A DNA stretch of 64,000 nucleotides from a virus, in IMG/VR virus record IMGVR_UViG_3300027759_000072, positions 1-64,000 of that record, one strand, 5' to 3'. The notes below the pieces were generated by a model that had not been told where the DNA came from, searched no databases, and worked only from the letters and a program-made list of their open reading frames with translations. The translations under genes and the position numbers were made by a program. Of the stretch, positions 6,950 through 58,055 are shown piece by piece; positions within the stretch are counted from its first letter, which is position 1; each line of letters starts with the position of its first letter.

Positions 6950-9900
6950 ATGGGAGCAGAATTAGGTAGAATTAGCGGCCCGCTGTTGGCGAAGAACTTA
7001 CTTCGCCAAGGCGCAGATCTTGCATTTGAAACTGATCTACTCTATCTTGATGTTAGTAACGGCCGTATTGGCGTTAACACCGCAGGTCCTTCTCAACGAT
7101 TAGAGGTAGTAGGTACTACTCGTACCAGTACAAATCCGTACATTAACGGTGATGCTGAACTATTTGTTGATACTCAAGCCGAATTTGACAATGTAAGATT
7201 TGTATCTTACAAAATTCAAAACGATCTTGGCAGGATTTACATTGTACCTGACCAACTCAGCAACCCAACAATAACTGCTAACGAAGTACGTACTAGTCAG
7301 TTAACCCTGTTTGATCGTGCAATTACTACTCGTAGTGTTGATACACATATCGAATTAACTGCCGATGGCACTGGCCGAGTAGTTTTTAATACCGACAGGG
7401 TAAATGTCAATGGTAACTTACACGCAACAGGTAACATTACCTGGGACGGTACTATTACAATTGGTGATAGTAACACTGACAATGTAGTATTTGAAGCCGA
7501 CATTAACAGTGATTTTATACCCAACGATGATAACTTTTGGGATTTAGGTAAACTTAGTCAGCAGTGGAAAAAGTTATACGTTGATACAATTGAAGTTGAT
7601 ACTACAACCTTAGACACGTTGACCGTTAACAACATTGATATGTTGTTGACACAAGGTAATACTATCTATGTTAGCATTAATGGTGACGATCTTTATTACG
7701 GAGACCATTTACACGCAACTTATAGAACAATAAAATATGCTCTAAGTCAAGCCGTTGCCGGAGATAACATTGTAATATTTCCAGGTACGTATGTTGAAGA
7801 ATTTCCGCTAACTATACCACAAGGTGTTAGTGTAAGTGGTGCTGGCATTAGAGCAGTTACCATTAGTCCAACCGTTGGAACTAGTGATAAAGATGCATTT
7901 TTGCTTAATGGAGAAACAACTGTTAGCAATCTAGCAGTTAGTGGAGTTAAGTACGATAGCGTTAATGATACCGGTTACGGATTTAGATTAGCACAAGGAT
8001 TTACAACTACTACTCGTAGTCCCTATGTTCTAAACATAACAGTTATTAACACGGCGCCTAACGCAGGAAGAGGCGCATTAGTAGACGGCAGTGTAGCAGA
8101 CCCATCATCAAACACCGCAACTATGTTATTCAGTGCCGTGACCTTTATTGTTCCAGGTGCCGACGGCATAACAGCAACAAACGGTGCCCGGGTCGAGTGG
8201 TTAAACTCGTTTACATACTTTGCCAACATAGGTATAAATTTAACACAAGGTACACTGGGTTTTGCTAGTTTAGGATTAAAATTTGGCGCAGAGATGCGCA
8301 GTATTGGATCAGCTAACGTATATGGTACATATGGCGCAAGAGCTGATGGCGCAGACACGTTAGGATACTTAATTGGACATAACTTTGGTTATATTGGGTC
8401 GGGCACTGACAGTCAAAATGACGATCAGTTAACCTTACAAGCCAATGAAATCATAGCAATTAATGGCGGCCAGCTGTACTATGACAGCATGGACCATAAG
8501 GGTAATTTTCGAGTCGGTGATGTATTTTATGTTGACCAACAAACTGGTAATGTAACATTTAATGCACAGTCAATTAGTTTTACAGCTGGCGGAAATATTA
8601 CGTTTGATAGCCCTAACGGCCAAACTATTATTGATGCAACAAAGATACAAACTGGAAATATCAGGATTCACGATAATGAAATTCAGTCGTTAATAGGCCC
8701 AGTAAACTTTTTTGCCGCTAACGGTACAACTAATCTTAACACAAACGTATTTGTAACTGGAAACATTGGAGTAACCGGCAATACGTATGTTGACGGCAAT
8801 GTATACTTAGGTGATACAAAATACGATTTAGTTACTGTATTTCCAAAACTAACACAAAATATCAATCCTAAACTTGATAGAACATACTCATTAGGCAATA
8901 ACGATCTTATTGATCCTAGAATATGGCGCACTGCTTTTTTAACTACACTAGACATTGACGGTGTTACACAAGTAACTAACAATACAATTTCTACGTTAAC
9001 TAGCGGAACAGATTTAAGATTTGTTGCCGCGGGCACAGGTACAGTTAAAGTAACATCTACAGATGTACAAGCAGATCAAAGTTTAACAGTAGGCGGAACA
9101 ACGGCAACTGTTAACGGTACAACCAGTCTACAATATGTAGAAATTGGAACAATATTATCTCCAAAAACACTAACACTTACTGGCGATATTGGACAAACTG
9201 GCGATACTTATATTACTGGATTGTTTGGTAATGCTGATATTAATATTTTAGGAGCAGGATCATATTTCCAAGTTCCTAGCATTAAAATACAAAATAATAT
9301 TATTACTACAATAGCGCCTGCAACTGATTTAGAAGTTGTAGCTAATAACAACGGTAGCATTATTGTTGACCAAAAGTTAAAGATTAAAGATAATGTTATT
9401 ACAAATAACTGGACTGGTGCAACTACAAACAGTCAAAAAAGTATATATTTTACTCCTAATGGAACAGGCAATGTAGTAGTTAACTCAACAAAATATTTAA
9501 AAATACCCTATAGTAATGACTCAACAAAGGTACTTTCTGCACCTGGCGAAATTAGACAAAATAGCACAACTCAAGCATACGAAGGTTATTTGTCTACCGG
9601 AACTGAAAGTTTTGTAAACGTCTACAGCACTGATAAAAATACATATATTACTCCAGAATTAACCATCGGCACTAATGATAACACATTAAGATTTGTTGTT
9701 AATAACGCTCTTAAAGCAACTATTACATCAACTATGATGTCAGATGCTGTACTGCAAGTTGGTAATTTTATACTATCTGGAAATACTATTAACAACCCTG
9801 TTACAAATTCTGATACAGTATTTCAACCTACAGGTACAGGCTCTATAAATGTTAACGGGTTATTATTTAAAGACGACAGTATTACAAATACTGCCGCAGG

Positions 9901-10153
9901 AGCAGTAACACTTCAAAGTACAGGCACAGGGTATGTAAAGTTTACAGGAACCGCCGGAGTAGTATTTCCATATGGTGATACTAGTCAACGCAGACTAACT
10001 CCAGCTCTTGGCGAAGTTAGATATAACAGCCAAATAAACTATATGGAAGTTTTTGACGGTACTAATTGGATCCCAGCCGTTGGTACTTTAGGGGCCGCAC
10101 CTCTCTCCGAAGTCCTTGATATTATGGACTTATGGGGCCTTGTCCTAGGCTAA
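6950..10153 (+). CDS. Large tail fibre protein with beta-helix (1067 aa)
   Basis: Host-contact fibre-type protein. N-terminus GRISGPLLAKNLLRQG, then LAFETDLLYLDVSNGRIGVN, shared almost residue for residue with the 1650-aa protein at 10309. A pectate-lyase-like beta-helix begins near residue 235 (NTIYVSINGDD, then TIKYALSQAVAGDNIVIFPG, TYVEEFPL) and runs to about 490. Next is the linker module MDHKGNFRVGDVFYVDQQTG (about 515-534), repeated TGNI/TGNT-type strands, and two 'GE(I/V)R.NS...EG/EVF' modules near residues 865 and 1020. There is no chaperone or protease signature at the C-terminus. It is probably trimeric, as in other beta-helical fibres. Exact virion position unknown. Confidence 0.75.
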   Translation: MGAELGRISGPLLAKNLLRQGADLAFETDLLYLDVSNGRIGVNTAGPSQRLEVVGTTRTSTNPYINGDAELFVDTQAEFDNVRFVSYKIQNDLGRIYIVPDQLSNPTITANEVRTSQLTLFDRAITTRSVDTHIELTADGTGRVVFNTDRVNVNGNLHATGNITWDGTITIGDSNTDNVVFEADINSDFIPNDDNFWDLGKLSQQWKKLYVDTIEVDTTTLDTLTVNNIDMLLTQGNTIYVSINGDDLYYGDHLHATYRTIKYALSQAVAGDNIVIFPGTYVEEFPLTIPQGVSVSGAGIRAVTISPTVGTSDKDAFLLNGETTVSNLAVSGVKYDSVNDTGYGFRLAQGFTTTTRSPYVLNITVINTAPNAGRGALVDGSVADPSSNTATMLFSAVTFIVPGADGITATNGARVEWLNSFTYFANIGINLTQGTLGFASLGLKFGAEMRSIGSANVYGTYGARADGADTLGYLIGHNFGYIGSGTDSQNDDQLTLQANEIIAINGGQLYYDSMDHKGNFRVGDVFYVDQQTGNVTFNAQSISFTAGGNITFDSPNGQTIIDATKIQTGNIRIHDNEIQSLIGPVNFFAANGTTNLNTNVFVTGNIGVTGNTYVDGNVYLGDTKYDLVTVFPKLTQNINPKLDRTYSLGNNDLIDPRIWRTAFLTTLDIDGVTQVTNNTISTLTSGTDLRFVAAGTGTVKVTSTDVQADQSLTVGGTTATVNGTTSLQYVEIGTILSPKTLTLTGDIGQTGDTYITGLFGNADINILGAGSYFQVPSIKIQNNIITTIAPATDLEVVANNNGSIIVDQKLKIKDNVITNNWTGATTNSQKSIYFTPNGTGNVVVNSTKYLKIPYSNDSTKVLSAPGEIRQNSTTQAYEGYLSTGTESFVNVYSTDKNTYITPELTIGTNDNTLRFVVNNALKATITSTMMSDAVLQVGNFILSGNTINNPVTNSDTVFQPTGTGSINVNGLLFKDDSITNTAAGAVTLQSTGTGYVKFTGTAGVVFPYGDTSQRRLTPALGEVRYNSQINYMEVFDGTNWIPAVGTLGAAPLSEVLDIMDLWGLVLG

Positions 10154-10308: not shown

Positions 10309-13300
10309 ATGGCTGTTGGTCGCATTACGGGTCCGCTCTTAAAGGCAAACCTTCTTCGAGAAGGTGTGAATCTTGCTTTTGAGACGAACTTACTTTATCT
10401 AGATGTTGTTAATGGCCGTATTGGTATTAATACTGCAACACCCGGGCACGACCTAGAAGTTAACGGAACAACTCGTACTACAAATTTAATAGTAGACAAT
10501 CAAGCAGACATTGCTACATTTACAATTAGCGGCGATACAATTGCTAGTTCTAACGGAACAATTAATTTAGAACCTAGTGGTTCTAATCCAGTAGTTTATC
10601 AAGGTAAATTACTTGTTAATGACAATTTACAAGTTACTACTAACGCAATATCAACTACTGATGCTGACGCTGACTTAGAATTTAATACTTCAGGTACCGG
10701 ACAAGTTAATGTTAACAGCGATATGCTTGTTAACGGAAATTTACACGCTACTGGAAATATTACAGCCGATGGCGATATTACTATTGGAAGTGCTAATAAC
10801 GACAACGTTATTTTTAATGCAGATATTAATAGTAATGTAATTCCAGAAGTATGGCAAGCTGGTGATCCCGGAGTCCCGGGAAGTCATGCAATTGGTGATC
10901 CTAAATGGGATTTAGGTAGTGTTACCCAAGCATGGAAAACAGCCTACATACACGACATACAAGCAACTAATTTTAATTCAAATAGCATTACTGTTAATGG
11001 TATTGATTTAGCATTACCTCAAGGAAATATCATTTATGTTGCAGAGGCAGGAAATGATAGCAATGCAGGACTACATGAAAATAACCCTGTACTCACAATT
11101 AAACATGCTTTATCATTAGCTTCTTCCGGTGATGTAGTTTACATCTATCCAGGAATTTATACTGAAGAATTTCCTCTAATAGTTAATGTAGGTATATCTG
11201 TTCGAGGCGCTGGTATTCGAGCAGTTAAAATTGTCCCAACGGTTGCAACTCAATACAATGATGCATTTGTATTAAACGGCGAAACTACAATTGAAGATTT
11301 AACTGTTGCTGATTTCTTTAGCAACGGAAATTATTTTACAGTTACTAGTGCATCTAGCGGATCCGTAACATTTAATGCTGGAACATCACCGTTTGCACAT
11401 ACTTATACTAGTGGCGGCACAGTTAACGTTAACGGCACTGACTATGCTGTTATTACAGCAACTTATAATTACTTAACAGGAATAACAACTGTTACTCATG
11501 CTGGCGGCACAGCTACCGGTACTATCTTCTTATCAAACTTAACATTTAGTTGTAATGGTAGCACACGAGTATTTCCAGATAACGGATACGCTTTCCGTTT
11601 TGCTAGCGGATTAACTGTAAGTAGTCGTAGTCCATATATTCGAAACGTATCGGTTATTACAAAAGGTTCAGTAACTAGCCTAAGTGACCCATTGGGATTT
11701 AACGCAGGTAACGCAGGTAAAGGCGCATATATTGACGGGGCATACGCAAATGTACTAAGCAAAGAAGCAAGTATGCTGTTTCATAACGCAACGTTTATTA
11801 CTCCGGGTGTTGATACTATCACCGCAACTAACGGCGTTCGAGTTGAGTGGTTAAACTCGTTTACATACTTTGCAACTCGCGGTATGTATGCATCATCAAA
11901 TAATTATGGTTTTGCACAACAAGGTAAAACACACTTAAGAATTAATACAAGAGTGGGTACTTGGGCAGTAGGAAATACTGTAAGTTACTATGATACTAAC
12001 GGCTCAACACTGTTAGCTAGCGGTGTTATTTCAAGTATTGACGGGAATTATGTAAATCTTACTGGCAGACAACTAGGATTTGAAACAATTACAGACCGTG
12101 CAGGAAAAACAGTATACGCTCAAGGCAACGCTAAACTTTCCACAGCAGTTAAGAAATTTGGCACGGCAAGTTTGGCACTAGACGGCACAGGCGATTATGC
12201 TAGTATAGCAACCCAACCAGACTTTGCTTTTCCGTCAACTATATCAAGACTACCTAAGACAATTACAGTCAACGGCAACGCCGCAGTCAGCGCAACACAA
12301 AGCAAGTTTGGCGGCAGTAGTATTGCGTTTGACGGTACAGGTGACTATCTTAGTCTTGCTACAGATACAGATTATGGATTTGGAACTGGGGACTTTACTA
12401 TTGAAGGCTGGTTCTATAAAACAGCAGTATCTACACAATATTTGTTTGATACAAGAACAACCCTAACTGAAAACTCCGTTGTTGTTCAGTCTAACGGTTC
12501 AGGCTCTTTAAGATTATTTGTAAATGGCGCATTTGTATTAACAAGTAGTAATGCTCATACTAATAATGCTTGGAATCACGTTGCTATCTCTCGTGCTAGT
12601 GGAGTGACAAGATTCTTTATAAATGGTGTGGTATCTACCGCTACCTATACTGATACAACTAACTATGGAACTACAAAGCCCTTAGTAGTCGGTGCTCAAT
12701 ACAACGGAACAACAGCATTTAATGGTTATATTGATGACTTTAGAGTAAGCAATACCGCAAGATATACCGCAACATTTACTCCTACTACTACAGCATTTGT
12801 TGACGACTTTAATACTAAATTATTAGTCAACGGAAATTCAACCATTGTTGACGACGCTTCCTACGGAACAGCAACTGACTTTACTATTGAGGGGTGGATT
12901 TATCCTACAGCAGCCGGAACATATCGAACACTATTTGATTTTAGATCAGCCGCTATTGAAAAATCAATTTATCTAGCTATCAATACTAGCAATCAACTGT
13001 ACTTGTATGTAAACGGCGTTATAACTATCACCACAGCCGCAACAGTATCGTTGTCAACCTGGACACACGTAGCATTAGTTAGAAGAAACGCCTCAACAAA
13101 AATATATTTAAATGGCACACAGTCGGGTTCTTCTTGGGCCGACATAACTGACTACGGAACAACCAAACCATTACGCATTGGTGCTGACTACAGCGGAGCA
13201 TACGGATTCACTGGTTATATTGACGATGTAAAAATTAGTAAAGGTGTAGCAAGATATACGACAACGTTTACTGCGCCCACTACAGCATTGACAGGCGATT

Positions 13301-15261
13301 TAGGAACAGTATTATTATTACATTTTAACGGTAACAATAATTCTACAACTATTTTAGACGATGGCATTACATTCCAAGACTTAAGAACTAGTGCCGGTGG
13401 CACCGCAACATTAATTGACTTTGCCGACTACTCAGACTTCGGTGCTGAGATTCGTTCAATTGCATCAGCCAGTGTCTATGGTAATTATGGGGTGTACGGG
13501 GACGGCCCCGGTGTTATTGCTTACTTAATTTCACAAAACTTTGCATACATAGGTGCTGGAAAACTATCAACAAACGATCCTAACGATCGTATTGCCGCTA
13601 ATGAAGTAGTAGAATTAAACGATGCAAAGATTTATTATACTAGTGTTGACAATGAAGGAAACTTCAAAGTTGGTGACAATTTTTATATTAATCAAAAAAC
13701 TGGCGAAGTTTTATTTAACAATCAAAACTTAACTGTTACTAGTTTAACCGGTGTTACATTCACTGACGGTACACATACTACAACTATTACTTCAACTGAT
13801 ATTACTACTGGTAATATCAGAATACACGATAATAACATTGATTCTACCACAGGGCAAATTGATGTTACTGCTGCCAACGGTGTAATTAATTTACAAAACA
13901 ATACGTTTGTTACAGGTAACTTAGATGTTACAGGCGATATTACCATTGGCGGAAATATTACTATTGGTGATCAAAGTACTGACACTATTAATTTTGTTGC
14001 TAGCATTGACAGTAGTTTAATTCCGTCACTGACAGCGTTCTATGATTTAGGCACAAGTTTATTACGGTGGAATACAGCGTTCTTAAGTCGTGCTGAAATT
14101 GACGGCGTAATTATTGATTCTAATCAAATTAGTACATCTATTGGAAATGATGATTTAACACTAACTGCCGCAGGTGCAGGAAGAATTTATATTCCAAGCA
14201 ACAATGTACAAATTGATCAAAACTTAACAGTAACTCAAAATCTTACAGTAACTAGCGGTACTACATATCTAAAAAATACAACAGTTACAGGCAACATTAC
14301 GCAGACTGGTAACATTAATCAAACTGGTAATTTTGTTACTAGCGGTAATACGCAAGTTACTGGTAATATTACCGGCTCAACATATTTGCAATTATCGCAA
14401 ATTAGACTTGAGAATAATGTAATTTCTACAACTGTGACAGATTTAGATTTAGAATTAAGGGCCAATGGCATCGGCAATGTTGTATTAGAAGGCATTAAGT
14501 TTAGCGACAACAATATACAAAGCATTGTTACAGACTCAAATATTACATTAGTACCACAAGGCACCGGCGGTGTAATAATTAATAGTAATCAAAGTATTCA
14601 AGTTCCAGTTGGAACAACTGCTCAACAACCAGGAACTCCGTCAAACGGTATGATTCGTTATAACTCAGACCTAACTAGGTATGAAGGATATAATAATGGT
14701 TATTGGGTAAAATTAGGCGGCCTGCAAGACGTTGATGGTAATACCAAGATTATTGCAGAAGCAACCCCTGGCGCAAACGACAATACACTTTATTTTTATG
14801 CTGACGGTAACTTAACAGCAACAATAGACAGTACAAAATTGTTTACCCAGCGTTTTCAAACAGTTAATTTAGATTTATATAGCAATACTATTACACCTGT
14901 ATTAGCAGATAGCAATCTTAATTTAACAACAACAGGTACCGGCGGGGTTCGCTTAGGTAACTTAAAGATTTTTAACAATACAATTACTAATATTGTAAGC
15001 GGAGCAATTACAGAATTTTCCGAAACAGGAACAGGGTATGTACGGATTGCGGGCTCTAATGGTGTAGTTATTCCAAGCGGTGATGTATTAAATGATCGGC
15101 CTGCAGTTCCTGAAATTGGAATGATTCGATTTAATACATACGACAACTTAGTAGAAGTATTTAACGGAGTAACTTGGTCAAGTGTTGCAGGTGCATCCGG
15201 CGGCGTAACGAGTTTAGAAGCAACAGAGATTGGTATTGCTTCCGCGCTCATATTTGGATAA
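10309..15261 (+). CDS. Giant tail fibre with beta-helix and two LamG-like domains (1650 aa)
   Basis: Paralogue of the 1067-aa fibre: same N-terminus (GRITGPLLKANLLREG), same beta-helix entry (NIIYVAEAGNDSNAG, about residue 240, then YIYPGIYTEEFPL), same GNFKVGDNFYINQKTGEV linker (about 1117) and same terminal GMIRYN/GMIRFN modules. It differs by a block of roughly 500 residues (about 535-1042) inserted in the beta-helix backbone. The block holds two laminin-G/concanavalin-like jelly-roll domains: DFTIEGWFYKT...WNHVAISR...FNGYIDDFRVS (about 675-826) and DFTIEGWIYPT...WTHVALVR...FTGYIDDVKIS (about 855-991). Such domains usually bind glycans, so receptor binding is the likely role. A second smaller insertion lies near residues 338-417. 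It has a strong GAGGAG ribosome site. Confidence 0.75.
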   Translation: MAVGRITGPLLKANLLREGVNLAFETNLLYLDVVNGRIGINTATPGHDLEVNGTTRTTNLIVDNQADIATFTISGDTIASSNGTINLEPSGSNPVVYQGKLLVNDNLQVTTNAISTTDADADLEFNTSGTGQVNVNSDMLVNGNLHATGNITADGDITIGSANNDNVIFNADINSNVIPEVWQAGDPGVPGSHAIGDPKWDLGSVTQAWKTAYIHDIQATNFNSNSITVNGIDLALPQGNIIYVAEAGNDSNAGLHENNPVLTIKHALSLASSGDVVYIYPGIYTEEFPLIVNVGISVRGAGIRAVKIVPTVATQYNDAFVLNGETTIEDLTVADFFSNGNYFTVTSASSGSVTFNAGTSPFAHTYTSGGTVNVNGTDYAVITATYNYLTGITTVTHAGGTATGTIFLSNLTFSCNGSTRVFPDNGYAFRFASGLTVSSRSPYIRNVSVITKGSVTSLSDPLGFNAGNAGKGAYIDGAYANVLSKEASMLFHNATFITPGVDTITATNGVRVEWLNSFTYFATRGMYASSNNYGFAQQGKTHLRINTRVGTWAVGNTVSYYDTNGSTLLASGVISSIDGNYVNLTGRQLGFETITDRAGKTVYAQGNAKLSTAVKKFGTASLALDGTGDYASIATQPDFAFPSTISRLPKTITVNGNAAVSATQSKFGGSSIAFDGTGDYLSLATDTDYGFGTGDFTIEGWFYKTAVSTQYLFDTRTTLTENSVVVQSNGSGSLRLFVNGAFVLTSSNAHTNNAWNHVAISRASGVTRFFINGVVSTATYTDTTNYGTTKPLVVGAQYNGTTAFNGYIDDFRVSNTARYTATFTPTTTAFVDDFNTKLLVNGNSTIVDDASYGTATDFTIEGWIYPTAAGTYRTLFDFRSAAIEKSIYLAINTSNQLYLYVNGVITITTAATVSLSTWTHVALVRRNASTKIYLNGTQSGSSWADITDYGTTKPLRIGADYSGAYGFTGYIDDVKISKGVARYTTTFTAPTTALTGDLGTVLLLHFNGNNNSTTILDDGITFQDLRTSAGGTATLIDFADYSDFGAEIRSIASASVYGNYGVYGDGPGVIAYLISQNFAYIGAGKLSTNDPNDRIAANEVVELNDAKIYYTSVDNEGNFKVGDNFYINQKTGEVLFNNQNLTVTSLTGVTFTDGTHTTTITSTDITTGNIRIHDNNIDSTTGQIDVTAANGVINLQNNTFVTGNLDVTGDITIGGNITIGDQSTDTINFVASIDSSLIPSLTAFYDLGTSLLRWNTAFLSRAEIDGVIIDSNQISTSIGNDDLTLTAAGAGRIYIPSNNVQIDQNLTVTQNLTVTSGTTYLKNTTVTGNITQTGNINQTGNFVTSGNTQVTGNITGSTYLQLSQIRLENNVISTTVTDLDLELRANGIGNVVLEGIKFSDNNIQSIVTDSNITLVPQGTGGVIINSNQSIQVPVGTTAQQPGTPSNGMIRYNSDLTRYEGYNNGYWVKLGGLQDVDGNTKIIAEATPGANDNTLYFYADGNLTATIDSTKLFTQRFQTVNLDLYSNTITPVLADSNLNLTTTGTGGVRLGNLKIFNNTITNIVSGAITEFSETGTGYVRIAGSNGVVIPSGDVLNDRPAVPEIGMIRFNTYDNLVEVFNGVTWSSVAGASGGVTSLEATEIGIASALIFG

Positions 15262-15999: not shown

Positions 16000-17330
16000 A
16001 TGGCAGATTTTAAGATAAACCGAATTAGATTTACATGGAAAGATACATGGGTAACCAACACGGCATATACCAAAGACGATATTGTTCGTTACCGTGGTAA
16101 ATCATACGTATGTCTAGTTGGGCATACTTCGTCTGCAGATTTTAATACCGATTTAAATTATATTGATGTTTCTACAACGCCAGACGAGGCCGCGCCAAAA
16201 TGGCAATTATGGTTAGACGGCTACGAGTGGAGGAACACTTGGTCAACTAATACACTATATAACCTTGGTGATTATATTCGATATAACAGCATTGTCTATA
16301 TTTGTATTACTAGCCATACCTCAGCAACAACTATTGCCAGCGGACTTGAAGTAGACCAAAGCAAGTGGGCACGTTATGCAGTCACAGACGACTGGCTCAA
16401 AGCATGGACCATTAATACTCGTTATCGATTAAACGATCTAGTTCGATACGGCGGAACAATTTATAGATGTAATTTTGGTCATACTAGTTCATCTACTACA
16501 TCGTTCCCAGGCGGCCTTGAATCTCATCAAGCATACTGGGATGCAGTCCTGTATGCCAATGATTGGAAGACTGACTGGGCTCCTTTGACTCGTTACAAAC
16601 TAAGTGATGTAGTTCGATACGGCGGGATTATTTATAAGTGTACTGATGCACACATTAGCGGAGCAACTGCAACTGTTGGTATAGATCCTGACATTTTAAA
16701 ATGGGAAATTGTACACACTGGAATAGATTACAAATTTACGTGGCAGGCACTGACACGATACAAGTTGAACGATGTAGTAAAACAAGGACCAGATTTATAT
16801 ATCTGTATTGTTGCACACCAATCGACTAGTACTTTTGATACAGCAAGTTTTAAAATTTGGGTTCCAGGCTTAGAATTTGCAAATGCATGGTTAAATTCAA
16901 TAGCTTACGATAAAGGCGATGTTGTTACATATGGTGGATATCAGTATACAAGCAATGTTCAAAATAATATTAATAATATTCCGTCAACCGACCTAATCAG
17001 TTGGACACTAGTAGTTAAAAATTACAACATAATGGGCGATTGGACCTCGGTTGGTAATTATCGCACTGGCGACCTTATTCGAAGAGATGGATATTTGTAT
17101 GTTGCGATCATGGATAGCGTAAGTATTGAACCTACAGATACTAGTAAATGGGAATTAGTAAATCCAGGTATGTACTGGCGCGGCGGCTGGGCCGCAGATC
17201 AAGTATATGTAGTCGGCGACGTTGTTACTTATTATTCAACTTCTTATATTTGTCTTGTTAAACATACTTCTGGTGCAATATTAGCTCCAGCACAAGATAC
17301 CACAAACATATATTGGGTTATATATGTTCG
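16000..17330 (+). repeat. Eight tandem coding repeats (Trp/Tyr carbohydrate-binding-like)
   Basis: Each unit is about 55 residues with a W-x-x-x-W start, a Y..(G/N)D(I/V)VRYGG turn and a Y.C...H(T/Q)S end. Units 1-5 and 8 keep the Cys; units 6 and 7 are diverged. Confidence 0.75.
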
Positions 17331-20300
17331 AGGTGATCAGTTTGAAACATTACAATATCAAGGTGATATTCAAACCTATAACAACAGTCAGTGGACCGCA
17401 ACTCCTATTGGTGGTGAAGGAAATTTATTAAAGACTAGAACACTCAGTACTAACAATTACCTGCCGATCCCGTCATGGGATAATTGGGGAATTATTGGAA
17501 AGGTCTATTACGTGTCACCTACCGGAGTTGACACTGCATCATACGGTACAACAATATCTACTCCGTGGAAAACTGTAAAATATGCGTGTAGTCAAGTTGC
17601 TGGACCTGCCACAATTTTTATTAAAACTGGTACATACGGTGAAACATTGCCAATCAGGGTACCAGCAGGTGTTGCTCTAGTAGGCGATGAACTTCGCGGA
17701 ACAGTAATCCAACCAGCAAAAATTATTAACTGTATTGCTACTGCATCAAGTAGCGCAACAGGAATAATTACATTAAACACTACTGTTGGTATATCAGCAA
17801 ACGATCCTATTCAGTTTGTAGTTGAAACATTAATTACTACAGCTCTTGCCACAGTTGCCTCAACTAATAAAATTACGTTAGCGTATGTTGCTAATTTATA
17901 TGTAAATGAAACTATTGTGTTTAACGGTGCAAGTCTTGGTGGGCTGGTTTCAGGCCAAGTATATTATATTAAAACATACGACTCGGCAACACAAACTATT
18001 ACAATTAGTGCAAGTTATAACGGCCCGACGTTTGCAGTAACCGATGCTCAAGGAGCAATGGCTGTTATAGCAGGTGGATTTGCTGGACTAACAATTGGCC
18101 AAACATACTATGTTATTGGTTCAACTATAACTCCAACAAGTTTTAAAATTTCTAACATTAACGGCGGTACAGCCGCAGTTAGTTTATCTGAGTCAACTAG
18201 TCAAACAGTTAATGTGTATGGCGGAGATGCAATTAAAAATATGTTCTTAGTTGCAAATGCAACTGGTATTCGAAACATGACCTTAACTGGTTTACTTGGC
18301 GGATTAGGTAGCCCTAATAGTTACGGAACAAGACGCCCAACAGCGGGAGCTTACGTATCACTGGATCCAGGCACTGGCCCAAATGATACATCAGTGCAAA
18401 TTACTACAAAATCTCCTTATGCCCAAAACGTATCAATGTTTGGACAAGGATGTGTTGGCGTAAAGATTGATGGAACATTACACAACGGTGGTAATAAATC
18501 TATTGTTGCTAACGACTTTACAACAATTTTATCTGCTGGAATTGGTGCTTGGTGTACTGGAACAGGATCATTAACAGAATTAGTATCAGTGTTCTCATAT
18601 TACGGCCATTGCGGTTACCTAGCAGAAGACGGCGGACGTATTCGTGCTACTAACGGTAACACATCTTATGGAAATTTTGGTTGCGTTGCCGAAGGATATG
18701 ATACAACAGAAAGTCCAATCACTGCAACTGTAAATAACAGAAATCAACAAGCTCAGATTGCTGCCGCGTTTATTGGTGAAGCAACTAACAAAATTTTAAA
18801 ATTTGAATATTCTAATGCTGGGCAAGAATATACTGGTGTAACTTATGCGTTTGGCGGATCAGGAACCGGCGCAATTGCAGTCGGTGACGAGTTCCGCGAT
18901 GGTGGAGTATATGAAGTTAGAATTTTAGGTAGCGATTTTGCCGCAGGTGGATTAGGATATATCACCGCAGTTAACCAAGCACAGGCTGGAAATACTCAAA
19001 CAATTACCATTGCAAGTAACGATCAAAATACGTTTGCTACTTACTATGGTATGAGATTAATAGTTACATCTGGTACTGGTGTTGGACAATACGGATACAT
19101 TGCAGGCTACGATGCTGTTGGTAAAATTGCAACCATTGCCAATGAAAGTGTTACACAACAAACATCGTCGTCTACCTCCGCTATAGATAATACAATTAAT
19201 GTACCAACAACCGCTGGATTTACTCCCGGCAGTGCAATTGTTTTTGTTCCTACTCAACAAAATACTACTGCTTTCCAGACTATTCGTACTATTGCTACAA
19301 TGACTACTGCTTATATTGCAGGCAACACATTATATGTTGTTTCAATGGGTGCCGGAGCCGTTGCAGTTGGTATGACCTTGACTGGGGCTGGGGTAACTAG
19401 CGGCACATACATCACAGCTAATAATGCCGGAACCGGTAGCGGAAGTACTTGGCAAATTAGTGTAGCACAAGTAGTTGGTAGTCAAGCAGTACCAATTACA
19501 ATTACTGGAACTAATAATTTAATAACCCTAACCTCCTCTGCAGGAATGGTTATTGGAGAACAAATTGTGTTTTCCGGAACAACATTTGGCGGAATTGTAA
19601 GTGGAACAACGTATTATATTATTAATGCAATTATAGGAAATCAAATTACTATTAGTGATACCTATCAAGGTCCAGTAAAAACATTAACTAACGGTTCGGG
19701 ACAAATGGCCACAGTAGCTGGCGGAATGTTAGGCGGCTTAACAGCAGGACAAATTTATTATGTAATTGCAACAAACTATTCAGCAACAAAGTTTTCAATA
19801 TCTACAAGTTTTGGCGGAACAATTCAATCAGTAACTACACAAACTTATGGAACAAAGATGGATGTACATGCAGTAGGATGGCAAAATATTGTTAGCGGCA
19901 CCCCGGCGGTTGCCTTATTAGATTCAACCAGCGTATATTCAATTGAGCCATGTGTTAGATTTAGCCAACCAAGCTATTCTTCAAGCGCGGTAACATTACC
20001 TACTACTGGCTGGGTATCAGTTACATACGGCAACGGAAAATATATTGCAATGACCTCAACAGGAGCAACTGCAAATTCATTAAATGGAACAGCTTGGACT
20101 ACAGGTACTGCCTTGCCCACCGGAACGTATGCAAAACTAAAATTTGTCGGCGGATTTTTCTATGCAATAACTTCTAATAGTAGCAGTATAGCATATTCTA
20201 TTGATGGTACATCTTGGACTTCGGGTAACACTACATTAGGTGGCGGCCACGCTGATATTGCATGGGGTAATAATAATTATATTGCTTTACAAACTACAAG

Positions 20301-21921
20301 TAGTGCAGTTGCTTCAAGCTCTATTAATGGATCAACATGGAGCGCAGTAACATTACCTACTACTGCTAGTTGGAAATCTATTGCATACAGTAACATTGGT
20401 GTGTGGGTTGCTATTGCAGGAAGTAGTAATATTGCCACATACTCATTAGACAACGGAACAACGTGGCTTACAACATATTCTACAGACGGCGGCATAACGC
20501 AGACTAACGTTCAGCTACCAACTTCGTCAAACTGGATTTCTGTTATATGGGGAAATGGTAGATTTGTTGCAATTTCCACTGGAGGAAGTGCAGCCGCATA
20601 CTCATTCGATGGCAAACTTTGGACAGCTAGCACAATGCCTGTAACAGCATCCTGGCAACAAATTACATACGGCCAAGGAACTTTTATAGTAGTCGGCAAC
20701 GGGACTTCGACCGCGCTATCTAGTCCTGACGGTATTGTATGGACTCAACGTACCTTATCATCGTCTGGATCGTGGGCAAGCGTTGCATTTGGTAATACTA
20801 ACTCAACTCCACTATTTTCCGTAGTATCTTCGTCGGCTAGCGGATTAGCCGTGGCATGCGGAGCTCAGGCGTTTGGTCGAGCTACTGTAGCTTCTAATAA
20901 AATTAGTGCTATTAAACTGTTAGAGCCCGGCAGTGGATATATTTCAGCTACACTAGGGGTTACTGATCCTAATCCAACATCATTTGTTACAACACTAGCG
21001 CGAATAGGTAACAAGGTCTTGGGAAATCCAACTTTTGTTAATCGAGGTACAGGATACAGGACATCGACAACAGTTATAACAGTTCAATCAGGAGACGGCT
21101 ATGCTGATATATATCAACCTAGCAAATTCTTAACAGTTTCTAACTTAGGATTTTTACCAACTCCAGGCGCCGCTTTAACAATCAACGGTAACCCTAATCA
21201 GTATCGAATTGTTCTTATTACCGACTTAGGTGCAAATAAAGCGCAATTCCAAATAAGTCCTCCGTTGACTATTTTATTAGCACCTGAGCATAATACAAGT
21301 ATCAATATTCGACAAAAATATAGCCAGTGCCGTATTACAGGACATGACTTCTTGTTAATTGGTACTGGAAATAAAGAAACGACGAATTATCCAAATGTTG
21401 ATGTTAATACAGCACTTCCATACCAGCAAATTGCTGAAAATAACGGAGGACGAGTATTCCAAACTTCAACAGACCAAGACGGCAACTTTAAAGTTGGTAA
21501 CTTGTTTGCGGTACAACAAGCATCTGGTATTGTTACAATTTCAGCAGATCAGTTGAGTTTAACAGGTCTACAAACACTGTCACTTGGCGGATTCCAGTTA
21601 GGAACAAACTCTGTAGTAATTACACAGTTTAGTACTGATAGTTATTTTACAGCAAATAGTGATAGTATTGTCCCGACTCAGAGAGCAATCAAAGCCTATA
21701 TTGCTAGAAACATTGCAGGTGGTGGTGCAAATGCACAAGCAGGCGCAATTGTTGCAGGTACATTTGGTGTTGGTGGTCCTAATAGGATTTACTCGTCAAC
21801 CCAGCAACAACTATTTGTTAGAAACTCTATGAGAATGACAAAAGGTATTAACGGAACTATGTTAGCTAAAAGCTTCTTTGCACACGGATTTTCCGTTGGC
21901 GGCAGCGATGCAGGAAAGTAA
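16000..21921 (+). CDS. Giant virion adhesin-like protein with Trp repeats, beta-helix and propeller (1973 aa)
   Basis: Multi-domain surface protein. Residues about 1-445 are eight tandem repeats of the form W..T.Y..(G/N)D.VRYGG..Y.C...HTS, resembling small carbohydrate-binding (chitin-binding type 3-like) modules. Residues about 500-920 form a pectate-lyase-like beta-helix (VYYVSPTGVD, FIKTGTYGETLPIRVPAG, then [16 protein letters not shown]). The helix has inserted GGL..GQ.YYVI and AGNTLYVVS modules there and at about 1095-1290. Residues about 1335-1605 hold at least six ~40-residue repeats with W.S..YGNG.(F/Y)(V/I)AI....AYS.DG..W, a propeller of Asp-box/BNR style. The C-terminus has [20 protein letters not shown] and YFTANSDSIVPTQRAIKAYI. 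Paralogous to the 2894-aa protein. Glycan binding is likely by analogy; no enzyme active site was identified. Confidence 0.75.
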   Translation: MADFKINRIRFTWKDTWVTNTAYTKDDIVRYRGKSYVCLVGHTSSADFNTDLNYIDVSTTPDEAAPKWQLWLDGYEWRNTWSTNTLYNLGDYIRYNSIVYICITSHTSATTIASGLEVDQSKWARYAVTDDWLKAWTINTRYRLNDLVRYGGTIYRCNFGHTSSSTTSFPGGLESHQAYWDAVLYANDWKTDWAPLTRYKLSDVVRYGGIIYKCTDAHISGATATVGIDPDILKWEIVHTGIDYKFTWQALTRYKLNDVVKQGPDLYICIVAHQSTSTFDTASFKIWVPGLEFANAWLNSIAYDKGDVVTYGGYQYTSNVQNNINNIPSTDLISWTLVVKNYNIMGDWTSVGNYRTGDLIRRDGYLYVAIMDSVSIEPTDTSKWELVNPGMYWRGGWAADQVYVVGDVVTYYSTSYICLVKHTSGAILAPAQDTTNIYWVIYVRGDQFETLQYQGDIQTYNNSQWTATPIGGEGNLLKTRTLSTNNYLPIPSWDNWGIIGKVYYVSPTGVDTASYGTTISTPWKTVKYACSQVAGPATIFIKTGTYGETLPIRVPAGVALVGDELRGTVIQPAKIINCIATASSSATGIITLNTTVGISANDPIQFVVETLITTALATVASTNKITLAYVANLYVNETIVFNGASLGGLVSGQVYYIKTYDSATQTITISASYNGPTFAVTDAQGAMAVIAGGFAGLTIGQTYYVIGSTITPTSFKISNINGGTAAVSLSESTSQTVNVYGGDAIKNMFLVANATGIRNMTLTGLLGGLGSPNSYGTRRPTAGAYVSLDPGTGPNDTSVQITTKSPYAQNVSMFGQGCVGVKIDGTLHNGGNKSIVANDFTTILSAGIGAWCTGTGSLTELVSVFSYYGHCGYLAEDGGRIRATNGNTSYGNFGCVAEGYDTTESPITATVNNRNQQAQIAAAFIGEATNKILKFEYSNAGQEYTGVTYAFGGSGTGAIAVGDEFRDGGVYEVRILGSDFAAGGLGYITAVNQAQAGNTQTITIASNDQNTFATYYGMRLIVTSGTGVGQYGYIAGYDAVGKIATIANESVTQQTSSSTSAIDNTINVPTTAGFTPGSAIVFVPTQQNTTAFQTIRTIATMTTAYIAGNTLYVVSMGAGAVAVGMTLTGAGVTSGTYITANNAGTGSGSTWQISVAQVVGSQAVPITITGTNNLITLTSSAGMVIGEQIVFSGTTFGGIVSGTTYYIINAIIGNQITISDTYQGPVKTLTNGSGQMATVAGGMLGGLTAGQIYYVIATNYSATKFSISTSFGGTIQSVTTQTYGTKMDVHAVGWQNIVSGTPAVALLDSTSVYSIEPCVRFSQPSYSSSAVTLPTTGWVSVTYGNGKYIAMTSTGATANSLNGTAWTTGTALPTGTYAKLKFVGGFFYAITSNSSSIAYSIDGTSWTSGNTTLGGGHADIAWGNNNYIALQTTSSAVASSSINGSTWSAVTLPTTASWKSIAYSNIGVWVAIAGSSNIATYSLDNGTTWLTTYSTDGGITQTNVQLPTSSNWISVIWGNGRFVAISTGGSAAAYSFDGKLWTASTMPVTASWQQITYGQGTFIVVGNGTSTALSSPDGIVWTQRTLSSSGSWASVAFGNTNSTPLFSVVSSSASGLAVACGAQAFGRATVASNKISAIKLLEPGSGYISATLGVTDPNPTSFVTTLARIGNKVLGNPTFVNRGTGYRTSTTVITVQSGDGYADIYQPSKFLTVSNLGFLPTPGAALTINGNPNQYRIVLITDLGANKAQFQISPPLTILLAPEHNTSINIRQKYSQCRITGHDFLLIGTGNKETTNYPNVDVNTALPYQQIAENNGGRVFQTSTDQDGNFKVGNLFAVQQASGIVTISADQLSLTGLQTLSLGGFQLGTNSVVITQFSTDSYFTANSDSIVPTQRAIKAYIARNIAGGGANAQAGAIVAGTFGVGGPNRIYSSTQQQLFVRNSMRMTKGINGTMLAKSFFAHGFSVGGSDAGK
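20005..20810 (+). repeat. Propeller-type coding repeats
   Basis: At least six ~40-residue blades of the form W.SV.YGNG.F(V/I)A(I/V)...(A/S)YS.DG..W....LP, in the C-terminal third of the 1973-aa protein. Confidence 0.7.
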
Positions 21922-35424: not shown

Positions 35425-37233
35425 TTAGTTAGCTACTTTAATTAATTTACTGTATTCTGGCAAATACAAATATTCAATGTCACATCTAGATAATGTATCA
35501 ATTGCATCATCTAATGTTTCTACTAACGGATCACCACCTAGGTTAAAGCTGGTATTAAACAAGATAGGTACTCCTGTACGACTATGGAATACTTTGATCA
35601 AATCATAATAGTGTTTGTTCTGTTCTTCTGTAACTGTTTGAATACGACAAGTTCCATCTATGTGAATAATAGCAGGAATCTTTTCTTCGATGCCAGGTTG
35701 GCAGTTAACAGCATACATCATATAAGGACTATCTTCCATACCTCGTAAATCAAACCATTCATGCACATGATCCTGCATAATAGAACCTGCAAACGGTCGG
35801 AAATATTCTCTATTTTTAACTTGGTTTACAAAATCCTTGCCGTCAATATACGTGGGATTAAACAATATACTACGATTACCTAATGCACGTGGCCCGTTTT
35901 CACTACGACCTTGGAACATACTAACAATGTTTTTATTCAATAATAATTCAACTACGTCTTCGTGTGTTGCATCTGTGATCTCAACACCGTGCGACTCAAC
36001 ATATTTTTGTAAATATGCATCGGTATAATTATATTGAAATCCTAAATATAGTCTATTTTTAGTATAATCAATGTCACCTGCTGGAACTAAATTCTTATAC
36101 ATCATAATAGCGGCGCCGATAGCAGTGCCAGCATCGTTACTAATTGGCTCGACATAAATGTTAATACCGTCATCCTTTAATGCTTCTAAATAATGATAGT
36201 TAGCAACACAATTTAAACCATAGCCACCGCTAATAACAACATTCTTTTGTCCAGTCATTGCAACTGCTTTACGAATTAACTTTACAACTTGAGCTTGGGT
36301 TTGAGTTTGGCAAGCATATGCTAAATCTCTACGATTTTGTAGTAGTGTTACATCACCGCCATCACCGTAATCTTTAAGAGCATCATATAATCCAATGTTA
36401 ACTACCGCGCCATTAGGGTAAGTAGGAATAATTATATTTCTATTTGGCAATGGAGCAATTGTTGTCTCGTCAAATAGTGGCGGAATAGCGTCGTTAGGGC
36501 CACCGTATGGAAATAGTCCCATAGTTTTGCCAGCTTCGATTGGCGCCCACCCGCAGTATTGTGTTACCGCTTCGTATACTTTAGTAATACCAGCACGATC
36601 AGTTACTAATGCTTCGTGCGTTTGTCCCGGTTCTTGGTAAATGCTACTATCAAATTCTGTAGCAAGAACACCAGGATGTGGCCCACGTGTGCCAATATGC
36701 TTATAAACAGTCTTAAACCATGCTGGATATTGACAATCGAAAACTGATTCAGTTTCCCATCCAGTCCACTGGTGATCATCATTGCTAATTTGCAATGGTA
36801 CAAATGTACCAGCGCCGTCAACAATAACACCCACTGCTTCTTTAAATCCACTGCGATAAAATGCACATGCGGCATGTAATTTATGATGTACTGAACTCAT
36901 GTCAATAACTTGTGGATGTTTAAATGGATTTTCTTTCCGACTAATTAATCCTAATTTTCTTGCAAGTCCGGTATAGACATCTTCGCCTGAAAAATCAACT
37001 TTACCAGCAGTTTCTGATAAAGACTGTGTATGTGCAATAGCAATATAGTCTAACTTATCAGTATATTCAAGAATTTTAAGCATAGCGGCATATGGCCCAC
37101 CGTCATACTTCGCTCTAGATAGGCGCTCTTCTTCTATACTAAAAATGATTTCACCGTTTTTTAACAAGCATACACTACTATTATGCCCACGGGTAATACC
37201 TGCAATCCATATATCTTTTCTAAGTTCTTTCAT
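35425..37233 (-). CDS. Carbamoyltransferase, NodU/TobZ family
   Basis: 602-aa protein with both halves of the family. The N-terminal kinase-like fold has AGITRGHNSSVCLLKNG (residues about 11-27), SSVHHKLHAACAFYRSGF (113-130, His ligands H116/H117/H120) and GVIVDGAGTF (D139). The C-terminal YrdC-like half has FQGRSENGPRALGNRSILFN (about 440-460). Family members transfer a carbamoyl group from carbamoyl phosphate to hydroxyls on sugars or antibiotics, via a carbamoyl-adenylate. The length is normal for the family. It is last in a minus-strand operon after an SGNH hydrolase and a glycosyltransferase, so a glycan is the likely substrate. Related genes occur in marine T4-like phages. Confidence 0.85.
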   Translation of the reverse strand: MKELRKDIWIAGITRGHNSSVCLLKNGEIIFSIEEERLSRAKYDGGPYAAMLKILEYTDKLDYIAIAHTQSLSETAGKVDFSGEDVYTGLARKLGLISRKENPFKHPQVIDMSSVHHKLHAACAFYRSGFKEAVGVIVDGAGTFVPLQISNDDHQWTGWETESVFDCQYPAWFKTVYKHIGTRGPHPGVLATEFDSSIYQEPGQTHEALVTDRAGITKVYEAVTQYCGWAPIEAGKTMGLFPYGGPNDAIPPLFDETTIAPLPNRNIIIPTYPNGAVVNIGLYDALKDYGDGGDVTLLQNRRDLAYACQTQTQAQVVKLIRKAVAMTGQKNVVISGGYGLNCVANYHYLEALKDDGINIYVEPISNDAGTAIGAAIMMYKNLVPAGDIDYTKNRLYLGFQYNYTDAYLQKYVESHGVEITDATHEDVVELLLNKNIVSMFQGRSENGPRALGNRSILFNPTYIDGKDFVNQVKNREYFRPFAGSIMQDHVHEWFDLRGMEDSPYMMYAVNCQPGIEEKIPAIIHIDGTCRIQTVTEEQNKHYYDLIKVFHSRTGVPILFNTSFNLGGDPLVETLDDAIDTLSRCDIEYLYLPEYSKLIKVAN

Positions 37234-54704: not shown

Positions 54705-57700
54705 ATGGCTCAATTAAGTTCACCAGGCGTAGCAGTTACAGTAATAGACGAATCGTTCTATACACCGTCTGCACCTGGCACAACCCCTTTAATTATCGTC
54801 GCTTCTGCCGAAGGCAAGCAAAATGGTTCAGCAACAGGAACCGCACTTGGTACAGTAACAGCAAATGCTGGCAAGGTTTATTTACTAACAAGCCAGAAAG
54901 ATTTAGCAGATACTTTTGGTACACCAGTATTTAAAACTGATGCTAATAACAATCCTATTCATGCTGGTGAACAGAACGAATACGGATTACAAGCCGCATA
55001 TAGTTATTTAGGTGTAAGTAATCGTGCTTTTGTAGTACGTGCAGATATTGACACTACCCAGCTAGATGCTAGCGCAGAACCGCCAGCAGGCGAACCAGAA
55101 AATAATACTTACTGGTTTGAAACTGACGCAACAAACTACGGTATTTTCCAGTGGAACAGCGATAGCCAATCAGTATCCGGCGGTCAAACATTTACTGTAC
55201 AATATCCAATAGTAATTACAAACGCATCAAAATTATCATCTGGTGCTGGCAGTGCTCCTAAGGCTAGTATCGGCGCAGCCGGTGATTATGCTATTGATGC
55301 TACAACAACATCCATTACATTATATTTTAAAAACACTAGCGGTGAATGGCATGAAGTTGGATCAGACTTATGGGCTAAGAGTTGGGCAACTGTACGTGGT
55401 ACAGCATCTAACCCAACACTAAATGCCGGTTCTATTATAATCAATGGTAGTACTGTAAACATTGGCGCCGCAACTGTTTTAGGTGACGGCGTAAGTGCCG
55501 GCCTTGTTAAAAACATCAATGATGCAAGCATTCTAGGTGTTACAGCAGCCAAGGTAAACGGTAGATTAGAACTTTATTCTACAGGCAATGGCAATAATAT
55601 TGTTATTAGCGGTTCTGGAACCGGCATAACTAGCGTACTTTACCAACTTGGATTAATTAGTCAAGCTTCACAATCAGGTGCAACATTAACATTTAAAGCC
55701 CCTGCATTGAATATTAAGCCACATACTGATATTCCTAATTTTAAGAGAACTACAGAAGTGTACAATAACGGTAATGCAACTGGTTCAGTTTGGGTTAAGA
55801 CAACAACTCCTAACTTAGGTGCAAACTGGAAGGTACGTTATTACAATTCAGCTTCGGCAGCTTGGGTTGACTCAAGGGCTCCATTATATGCAGACAATGC
55901 TACAGCCCTTGCAAAATTAGACCCAACCGGCGGCGGCATTAATTTAGCATTGAATTCATTATATGTTAAGTTTGACGATGCAGAACAAGGTACAAATGGT
56001 GCCGGCGATATCATGGCTAACTTTAAGTTGTTCTATCGCAACGGTGTTGGCGCTACAACTCTTAAAACTACAAGTTTCATAAGTGGTGGATTTGCCGAAG
56101 ACGACGTTATAAACTTTACAATTAGCGAATCTTTAAAAGGCAGTACAGAATTATCTGGTCCAAGTTTAGCGATTACATTTACAGCACTGGGCGATAGCAC
56201 AGACGGTGAAACACTAGCTGAAGAAATTGGTCTAGCAGGATTAACTAATATACTTGCAGAATACGATGCAACATCGGGTATTGTAACAATTAGCCACAAA
56301 TTAGGCGGTGATTTTAGAATTACAGATAACGGAGCCACACTAGACTCGATTATGGCCGTAGGCACTACTGCACATTTATATGATGATCCAAGCGGTGATG
56401 CAACTTATCAAGTATCATTATGGTCTTCAACTATTGCTGGCGTGGGATTTGCAGTAGCAACCCCAACTGAGCCAACAACACTTCCAGCCGATGGACGTTT
56501 ATGGTACAACTCAATGATTGACGAAGTGGACATTATGATCCATAACGGTACAACATGGGTTGGGTATGCCAACTTTGACCAAACAGCAGTAGGTGGCCCA
56601 GCAACAGATCCAGCAGGTCCATTTGTACGTGCTAGTAAGCCAACAGCGGCTGATCGTACAGACGGCGAAACTGAACTAGCCCACGGTGATATTTGGGTCG
56701 ACACTAGTGATTTAGAAAATTTCCCAAAGATCTACAAATTCAACTATGTAACTAAGAAATGGGTGGCAGTTGATAATTCTGATCAAACAACAGAAGATGG
56801 AATTTTATTTGCTGATGCACGTTGGTCAGGTGCAGGCAACGATATTGAATCGGACTCAATTGCTAATCTATTGACATATAATTTCTTAGACTTTGACGCT
56901 CCGGATCCTGCACTATATCCAAAAGGTATGTTGTTATGGAACCTACGCAGAAGCGGTTTCAACGTTAAGCGTTTTGTACGTGATTATATTGACACAACTG
57001 AAACTAACTATAGAATTGGTGGCGCCGGTGGCGATCCGATGACAGAATACTATCCACACCGTTGGGTAAGTGAAGCTGGCAATCAAGAAGATGGCAGTGG
57101 TACATTTGGTCGCAAGGCACAGCGTAAAGTTGTTGTACAAGCACTACAAGCATTAGTTAACAGCAACCAACAAATCCGTGATGAAGAATCACGTGTGTTT
57201 AACTTAATTGCTTGCCCAGGATATCCAGAACTAATTGGTGAAATGGTCAGCTTGAACTACGATCGTGGTCTAACAGCATTCGTAGTTGGAGATACACCTG
57301 CTCGTTTAACACCAGATGCTACAACATTAAGCAACTGGGGTAATAACTTAGCAGGAGCGTTAGAAGATAACGATGGTGGTTTAGTTAGCTTTGACGAGTA
57401 TTTAGGTTGTTTCTATCCATGGGGTTTCACAAGTGATAACTTAGGTAACAACGTAGTTATTCCTCCAAGCCACATGATGCTACGCACTATTGCACTAAGC
57501 GATAACGTTTCTTATCCATGGTTTGCACCGGCAGGAACACGTCGAGGCGGTATTACTAACGCAACAGCAGTTGGTTATATCACTAGCGAAGGTGAATTCC
57601 AATCAGTTGCATTGAATAACGGCCAGCGTGATACGCTAGCAAGTGTTAAGGTTAATCCATTAACATTCATTACAGGAACAGGTCTTGTTAACTACGGACA

Positions 57701-58055
57701 ATACACTCGCGCTAAGAATGCAAGTAGTTTAGATCGTATTAACGTAGCACGTTTAGTAATTTACTTACGTAGACAGTTTGCGCAGTTGGCAAAACCATAT
57801 GTATTTGAACCAAACGACAAAATTACACGAGACGAAATTAAACAAGCCGCAGAAAGCCTATTGTTAGAATTAGTAGGACAACGTGCATTGTATGATTACC
57901 TAGTAGTGTGTGACGAATCAAACAACACACCATCTAGAATCGATCGTAGTGAACTATATCTAGACATTGCAATTGAGCCAGTAAAAGCAGTGGAGTTTAT
58001 TTACATTCCATTACGCTTGAAGAATACTGGTGAGATCAAAGGCCTAGGCAAATAA
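54705..58055 (+). CDS. 18: Tail sheath protein gp18
   Basis: Contractile sheath subunit. The N-terminus MAQLSSPGVAVTVIDESFYT and C-terminal third are clearly gp18: LIGEMVSLNYDRGLTAFVVG, SYPWFAPAGTRRGGITNAT, SSLDRINVARLVIYLRRQFA, ALYDYLVVCDESNNTPSRID, ELYLDIAIEPVKAVEFIYIP. At 1116 aa it is far longer than T4 gp18 (659). The extra sequence lies in the middle (about residues 130-680), Thr/Ala/Gly-rich, with ADGRLWYNSMIDEVDIMIHN and HGDIWVDTSDLENFPKIYKF, which look like beta insertion domains exposed on the sheath surface. A late promoter and strong context fit high expression. Confidence 0.95.
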   Translation: MAQLSSPGVAVTVIDESFYTPSAPGTTPLIIVASAEGKQNGSATGTALGTVTANAGKVYLLTSQKDLADTFGTPVFKTDANNNPIHAGEQNEYGLQAAYSYLGVSNRAFVVRADIDTTQLDASAEPPAGEPENNTYWFETDATNYGIFQWNSDSQSVSGGQTFTVQYPIVITNASKLSSGAGSAPKASIGAAGDYAIDATTTSITLYFKNTSGEWHEVGSDLWAKSWATVRGTASNPTLNAGSIIINGSTVNIGAATVLGDGVSAGLVKNINDASILGVTAAKVNGRLELYSTGNGNNIVISGSGTGITSVLYQLGLISQASQSGATLTFKAPALNIKPHTDIPNFKRTTEVYNNGNATGSVWVKTTTPNLGANWKVRYYNSASAAWVDSRAPLYADNATALAKLDPTGGGINLALNSLYVKFDDAEQGTNGAGDIMANFKLFYRNGVGATTLKTTSFISGGFAEDDVINFTISESLKGSTELSGPSLAITFTALGDSTDGETLAEEIGLAGLTNILAEYDATSGIVTISHKLGGDFRITDNGATLDSIMAVGTTAHLYDDPSGDATYQVSLWSSTIAGVGFAVATPTEPTTLPADGRLWYNSMIDEVDIMIHNGTTWVGYANFDQTAVGGPATDPAGPFVRASKPTAADRTDGETELAHGDIWVDTSDLENFPKIYKFNYVTKKWVAVDNSDQTTEDGILFADARWSGAGNDIESDSIANLLTYNFLDFDAPDPALYPKGMLLWNLRRSGFNVKRFVRDYIDTTETNYRIGGAGGDPMTEYYPHRWVSEAGNQEDGSGTFGRKAQRKVVVQALQALVNSNQQIRDEESRVFNLIACPGYPELIGEMVSLNYDRGLTAFVVGDTPARLTPDATTLSNWGNNLAGALEDNDGGLVSFDEYLGCFYPWGFTSDNLGNNVVIPPSHMMLRTIALSDNVSYPWFAPAGTRRGGITNATAVGYITSEGEFQSVALNNGQRDTLASVKVNPLTFITGTGLVNYGQYTRAKNASSLDRINVARLVIYLRRQFAQLAKPYVFEPNDKITRDEIKQAAESLLLELVGQRALYDYLVVCDESNNTPSRIDRSELYLDIAIEPVKAVEFIYIPLRLKNTGEIKGLGK

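Follow-up and report, generated by a model that had tools for sequence, protein, structure and literature searches.

The 1650-aa protein B, encoded by one of two adjoining paralogous fibre genes (A and B), holds a cassette of two LamG domains at a fixed point of its backbone. Profile alignments show that these domains are nested, a complete inner LamG lying within a split outer one, and comparison with relatives shows that the cassette has been exchanged horizontally between backbones, approximate borders included. A loop of the B helix is likely, though some way from certain, to act as a socket for an exchangeable nested lectin-like cassette, whose replacement would probably alter adsorption.

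The window, i.e., the whole stretch of 64,000 nucleotides analysed here, is part of an 80-kb viral record and belongs to a contractile-tail phage, with a head protease, major head protein, tail sheath and tail tube all found. The tail sheath protein (54705-58055, 1116 aa) is covered by the general sheath profile phrog_23 over its last third only, and a Nol-like carbamoyltransferase is encoded on the minus strand inside the structural region (35425-37233). A 1973-aa protein (16000-21921) contains N-terminal CBM_5_12 carbohydrate-binding repeats (7 stretches, E 2e-41) and gives a weak match to the beta-helix of A and B. A scan of genome contigs with the C-terminal part as query found no relative and thus provided no host clue.

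Both fibre ORFs of an earlier, sequence-only reading were borne out at the lengths given in Table 1, as was its observation that a LamG-pair insertion sets B apart from an insertion-free paralogue, with border motifs that had been quoted exactly. In B, GFAQQG is found at residue 534 (11908) and FGAEIRSIASA at residue 1044 (13438), and the insert comprises residues 540-1043 (11926-13437), approximately 504 residues with two LamG jelly rolls. The backbone can be aligned on either side of it: BLASTP matches A445-1067 with B1044-1650 (39%, E 1e-104), and the part ahead of the insert aligns too.

Table 1. Features of paralogues A and B in the window (residue numbers refer to B).
Feature	Positions	Strand	Remarks
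Paralogue A	6950-10153	+	1067 aa; backbone common with B, without LamG
Empty site in A	8258-8314	+	reads GFASLGLKFGAEMRSIGSA
Paralogue B	10309-15261	+	1650-aa fibre-like virion protein; PHROG 13163 'baseplate wedge subunit'
N-terminal half of probable pectin-lyase-like beta-helix of B	10960-11925	+	ahead of insert; DUF1565 match in orthologue L165
VEWLNSFTYFA segment, conserved	11842-11874	+	putative upstream homology arm; cassette identity switches near here in relatives
Segment B540-591	11926-12081	+	first cassette part, ~50 residues; accompanies LamG in most relatives
Outer LamG, first part	12082-12234	+	B592-642; profile positions 1-51
Inner LamG, complete	12238-12858	+	B644-850; profile positions 3-223
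Outer LamG, second part	12871-13434	+	B855-1042; profile positions 52-246
Downstream homology arm (putative)	13438-13506	+	start of resumed backbone
Backbone resumes, FGAEIRSIASA...	13438-13788	+	beta-helix C-terminal part and shaft start

The backbone of B is probably a pectin-lyase-like beta-helix, as indicated by PHROG matches and by the DUF1565 match of one orthologue (L165, E 1.7e-9); A and B themselves have no DUF1565 match in Pfam. The family (PHROG 13163/32294/1469) is found here in a contractile-tail phage with a sheath, and the PHROG name 'baseplate wedge subunit' points to a possible, mainly structural role. When PDB sequences were searched, with T4 gp7 among the solved structures, B gave only a LamG-type match (E 0.018), and the 'gp7' of Prochlorococcus phage P-HM1 gave none, a sequence-only result that leaves a distant relation possible. 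As neither T4 gp7 nor any other solved structure matched the backbone, the baseplate label is weak. Among relatives, the L-numbered members of a metagenome-based sample, a 2592-aa B orthologue (L005:10443-18218) has a shaft behind the helix that was apparently enlarged by repetition of a unit also present in the window. Both paralogues have the beta-helix in 24 contigs and both lack it altogether in four (L016, L133, L138 and L146), whereas no contig has it in only one of them. This co-presence (Fisher p 5e-5 over contigs in which both could be judged, not corrected for kinship) suggests that the two proteins function next to each other.

Pfam Laminin_G_3 matches B in two stretches (E 5e-39, 134.3 bits against a curated cut-off of 27.6), while a profile of LamG domains resolves three pieces (Table 1), and some 205-210 residues separate profile position 51 of the outer LamG from position 52. 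A profile built from single-LamG relatives only splits B almost identically, at positions 1-50, 4-215 and 46-239. The sequence-only reading was right that the conserved backbone has a lectin-like pair at one fixed position, but the word 'pair' conceals the arrangement, with one LamG lying inside the other rather than following it. The same split occurs in L002, L003, L005, L006-L009, L033, L034, L039, L129 and L165; L035 is truncated at its 5' end and begins with the inner LamG. One further contig (L032/L124/L166; L032:5900-7000) has a nested B gene with two frame breaks in the LamG region, due either to an assembly error or to gene decay. A LamG domain is usually, but not by definition, contiguous. 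No nested or discontinuous LamG domain was found in a limited literature search, which is weak evidence of absence.

Structure prediction upholds the LamG calls, and neither of the two outcomes named in the sequence-only reading as fatal to it, unsupported LamG calls or a backbone failing to align on both sides, materialised. AlphaFold2 modelled residues 542-1043 with a mean pLDDT of 83.7, reaching ~90-97 over most jelly-roll parts, and a pTM of 0.55, which supports the folds and not the relative placement of the domains. In the alignment behind this model, heads and bodies were entered as separate pieces, because whole single-LamG relatives, when aligned with nested ones, misplace their bodies onto the inner domain. 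Foldseek retrieved laminin LG4-5 pairs (E 2e-10) as well as neurexin and pentraxin/serum amyloid P, and since the pair alignments have an rmsd of ~20, these hits are used for fold class only. Together, AlphaFold2 and Foldseek assign a jelly-roll fold to the LamG domains, and the break in the outer one falls between strands DYASIA and DFTIEGW of the model. A first AlphaFold model (916 aa, 8 sequences; pLDDT 46.7), in which the beta-helix was of low confidence, was left out of the fold claims.

In B orthologues, the same site is occupied by the nested pair, by one LamG or by a ~95-residue non-LamG segment (L125 and L135), and the scaffold aligns on both sides with the insertion-free homologues A, L125, L135 and DSL-LC03. 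Most genomes have an A without and a B with LamG. The statement that the insertion distinguishes the two paralogues holds for this genome, but not beyond it, as in L014 the A orthologue, too, carries a LamG where B has its insert, and several B orthologues have none. A different site is used in L131 (2976-6878), where an A paralogue carries a LamG in its C-terminal domain (residues 970-1178). The direction implied by a pair 'put into' the backbone also claims too much, because these helix parts already enclose one LamG in the 'gp7' of P-HM1.

Horizontal exchange is visible in pairs of relatives with opposite patterns. The nested L002 and the single-LamG L112 have backbones that are 95-97% identical and cassettes of only 57% identity (DNA: flanks 92.2%, aligned cassette 62.3%, p 5e-60). 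L041 and L042, in contrast, share cassettes with 97% identity on backbones with 66-76% (DNA: cassette 94.9%, flanks 70.4%, p 8e-49). At four-fold degenerate sites, L041 and L042 agree in 137/156 cassette positions (88%) and in 57/118 flank positions (48%; p 2e-12), and the window and L003 in 131/192 (68%) and 43/115 (37%; p 1e-7), respectively. The pairs were chosen from a wider table and the p-values are uncorrected for this choice, though very small. Codon-usage constraint could inflate the four-fold comparison, but the contrary pattern in other pairs speaks against this. Identity switches around SMYLYSSNDGFA upstream and at ADYSD|FGVE downstream in L041/L042, and right after EWLNSFSYFADK upstream and ~25 codons into the downstream arm in L002/L112. 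In both pairs, the switches lie at most ~25 codons from the borders originally proposed.

When the 250 C-terminal residues, a short region that may itself recombine, are used for a tree, the nested forms are scattered over the backbone; their grouping in one clade is rejected (AU p 1e-29), and well-supported branches force at least 4 state changes. A second tree, of LamG bodies, separates the inner domains of L129 and L165 from the clade that holds the inner domain of the window and places the outer domains of L003 and L006 in a clade by themselves. Inner LamGs belong to at least 3 lineages, and outer types vary independently of inner types. Mosaicism also exists below the domain level: the outer heads of the window and L003 are identical in 52/52 residues, and their outer bodies in 58%.

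These observations can be combined into a mechanism, in which B would be a fibre or baseplate-associated protein with a permissive beta-helix loop serving as the cassette socket. The cassette in the window would be a LamG whose DYASIA/DFTIEGW surface loop holds a second complete LamG, and the conserved flanks VEWLNSFTYFA (before) and FGAEIRSIGSA.VYG.YG (after) would provide the homology arms. Co-infecting or related phages could then swap cassettes (none, one LamG or nested LamG) by homologous recombination, leaving the scaffold undisturbed. The jelly rolls, presumably exposed, would most likely bind cell-surface glycans, so that a swap would change adsorption and possibly host range. The earlier interpretation, which had proposed a changed receptor range, is thus partly supported; this reading gains support from the transfer of the cassette as one unit from backbone to backbone. 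Exchange may also be two-tiered, with both the helix loop and the LamG 51/52 loop acting as sockets and either the whole cassette or the inner domain being traded, an extension given slightly less than an even chance.

Three other explanations have to be weighed. True nesting would be absent if tandem LamGs exchanged strands, or if the pieces were remnants of a tandem array with a degenerate first fragment and a truncated last LamG. Other phage proteins often contain tandem LamG arrays (L057, L058 and L061), and 322.9 bits are still reached when the inner head is combined with the outer body, which makes a swapped pairing not impossible. The outer body joined to its own head, however, reaches 363.7 bits, compared with 268.5 when it is scored by itself and 206.7 for the inner domain. 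In ~10 distinct relatives, the two outer pieces complement each other, one stopping at profile position 51 and the next resuming at 52 or 53. Over the full domain length, the single-LamG relatives L011-L014 align at 53-60% with the two outer pieces combined, skipping the 200-residue inner domain. The heads of resident single LamGs are closer to the outer head (65-80%) than to the inner one (43-59%), and the outer body follows the same trend. As the outer head is also conserved and well predicted (pLDDT ~90) rather than degenerate, a tandem origin without nesting is quite improbable, and nesting is retained.

It is likewise unlikely that the cassette has no ligand and, with neutral turnover, serves a baseplate protein as a spacer or stabilising knob. 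The PHROG and cyanophage annotations, which name the family a baseplate wedge subunit, and the lineages without helix and cassette are in line with such a role. The weakness of the baseplate label argues against it, as do the reuse of a lectin-like fold in nearly all cassettes and the fact that exchange is limited to this lectin-like part and spares the backbone, as is usual in host-recognition modules (PMC10684548). Purely vertical history, with a single gain of the LamG pair in B after the A/B duplication and differences among relatives due to losses, would fit the prevailing distribution of LamG between A and B. It is nevertheless very improbable, given the interspersed nested and single forms on the backbone tree, the near-identical backbones with different cassettes and divergent backbones with the same cassette, and the origin of inner domains from different LamG lineages.

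If adsorption is determined by the cassette, metagenomic phages could be classified on that basis, and the conserved arms would explain how specificity changes without loss of assembly. Fibres that are almost the same except for one bounded lectin cassette constitute a natural repeated experiment, and a jelly roll inside a jelly roll at one fixed loop would offer a simple evolutionary path to branched adhesins.

Among known systems, phage Dit proteins with inserted carbohydrate-binding modules, which are reported to alter adsorption (PMC10688798), are the closest tested precedent. In the evolved Dit of Skunavirus, P335 and Lactobacillus siphophages, such a module lies inside a conserved tail protein and promotes adsorption, and the remainder aligns with the insertion-free form; the available parts of these accounts describe no module within a module (PMC10688798; PMC9692632). 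Evolved Dit also combines a Dit/galectin ring with another module, whereas B would be a beta-helix fibre of a contractile-tail phage, and the B scaffold, by its PHROG assignment, is not Dit and thus analogous to this group rather than a member of it. The cyanophage 'gp7 baseplate wedge initiator' (P-HM1 PHM1_095, MED4-213 and ACG-2014f) has homologous helix parts flanking a single LamG at the site used in B, as exemplified by L022 (helix 60-284, LamG 420-655, helix 657-772), but P-HM1 has one LamG only, a far longer C-terminal part and ~35-43% identity. Nested LamG was not found among the ~100 isolate records listed, whose matched spans fit one LamG, except for a longer span in one Erythrobacter phage. 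Domain shuffling in tail fibres and spikes, with over-representation of pectin-lyase-like domains, is known from phage receptor-binding proteins (PMC10684548), but the unit exchanged in B is internal to one helix, has defined borders and appears two-tiered. The tandem arrays of phage structural proteins (L057 and L058) contain the same LamG family side by side.
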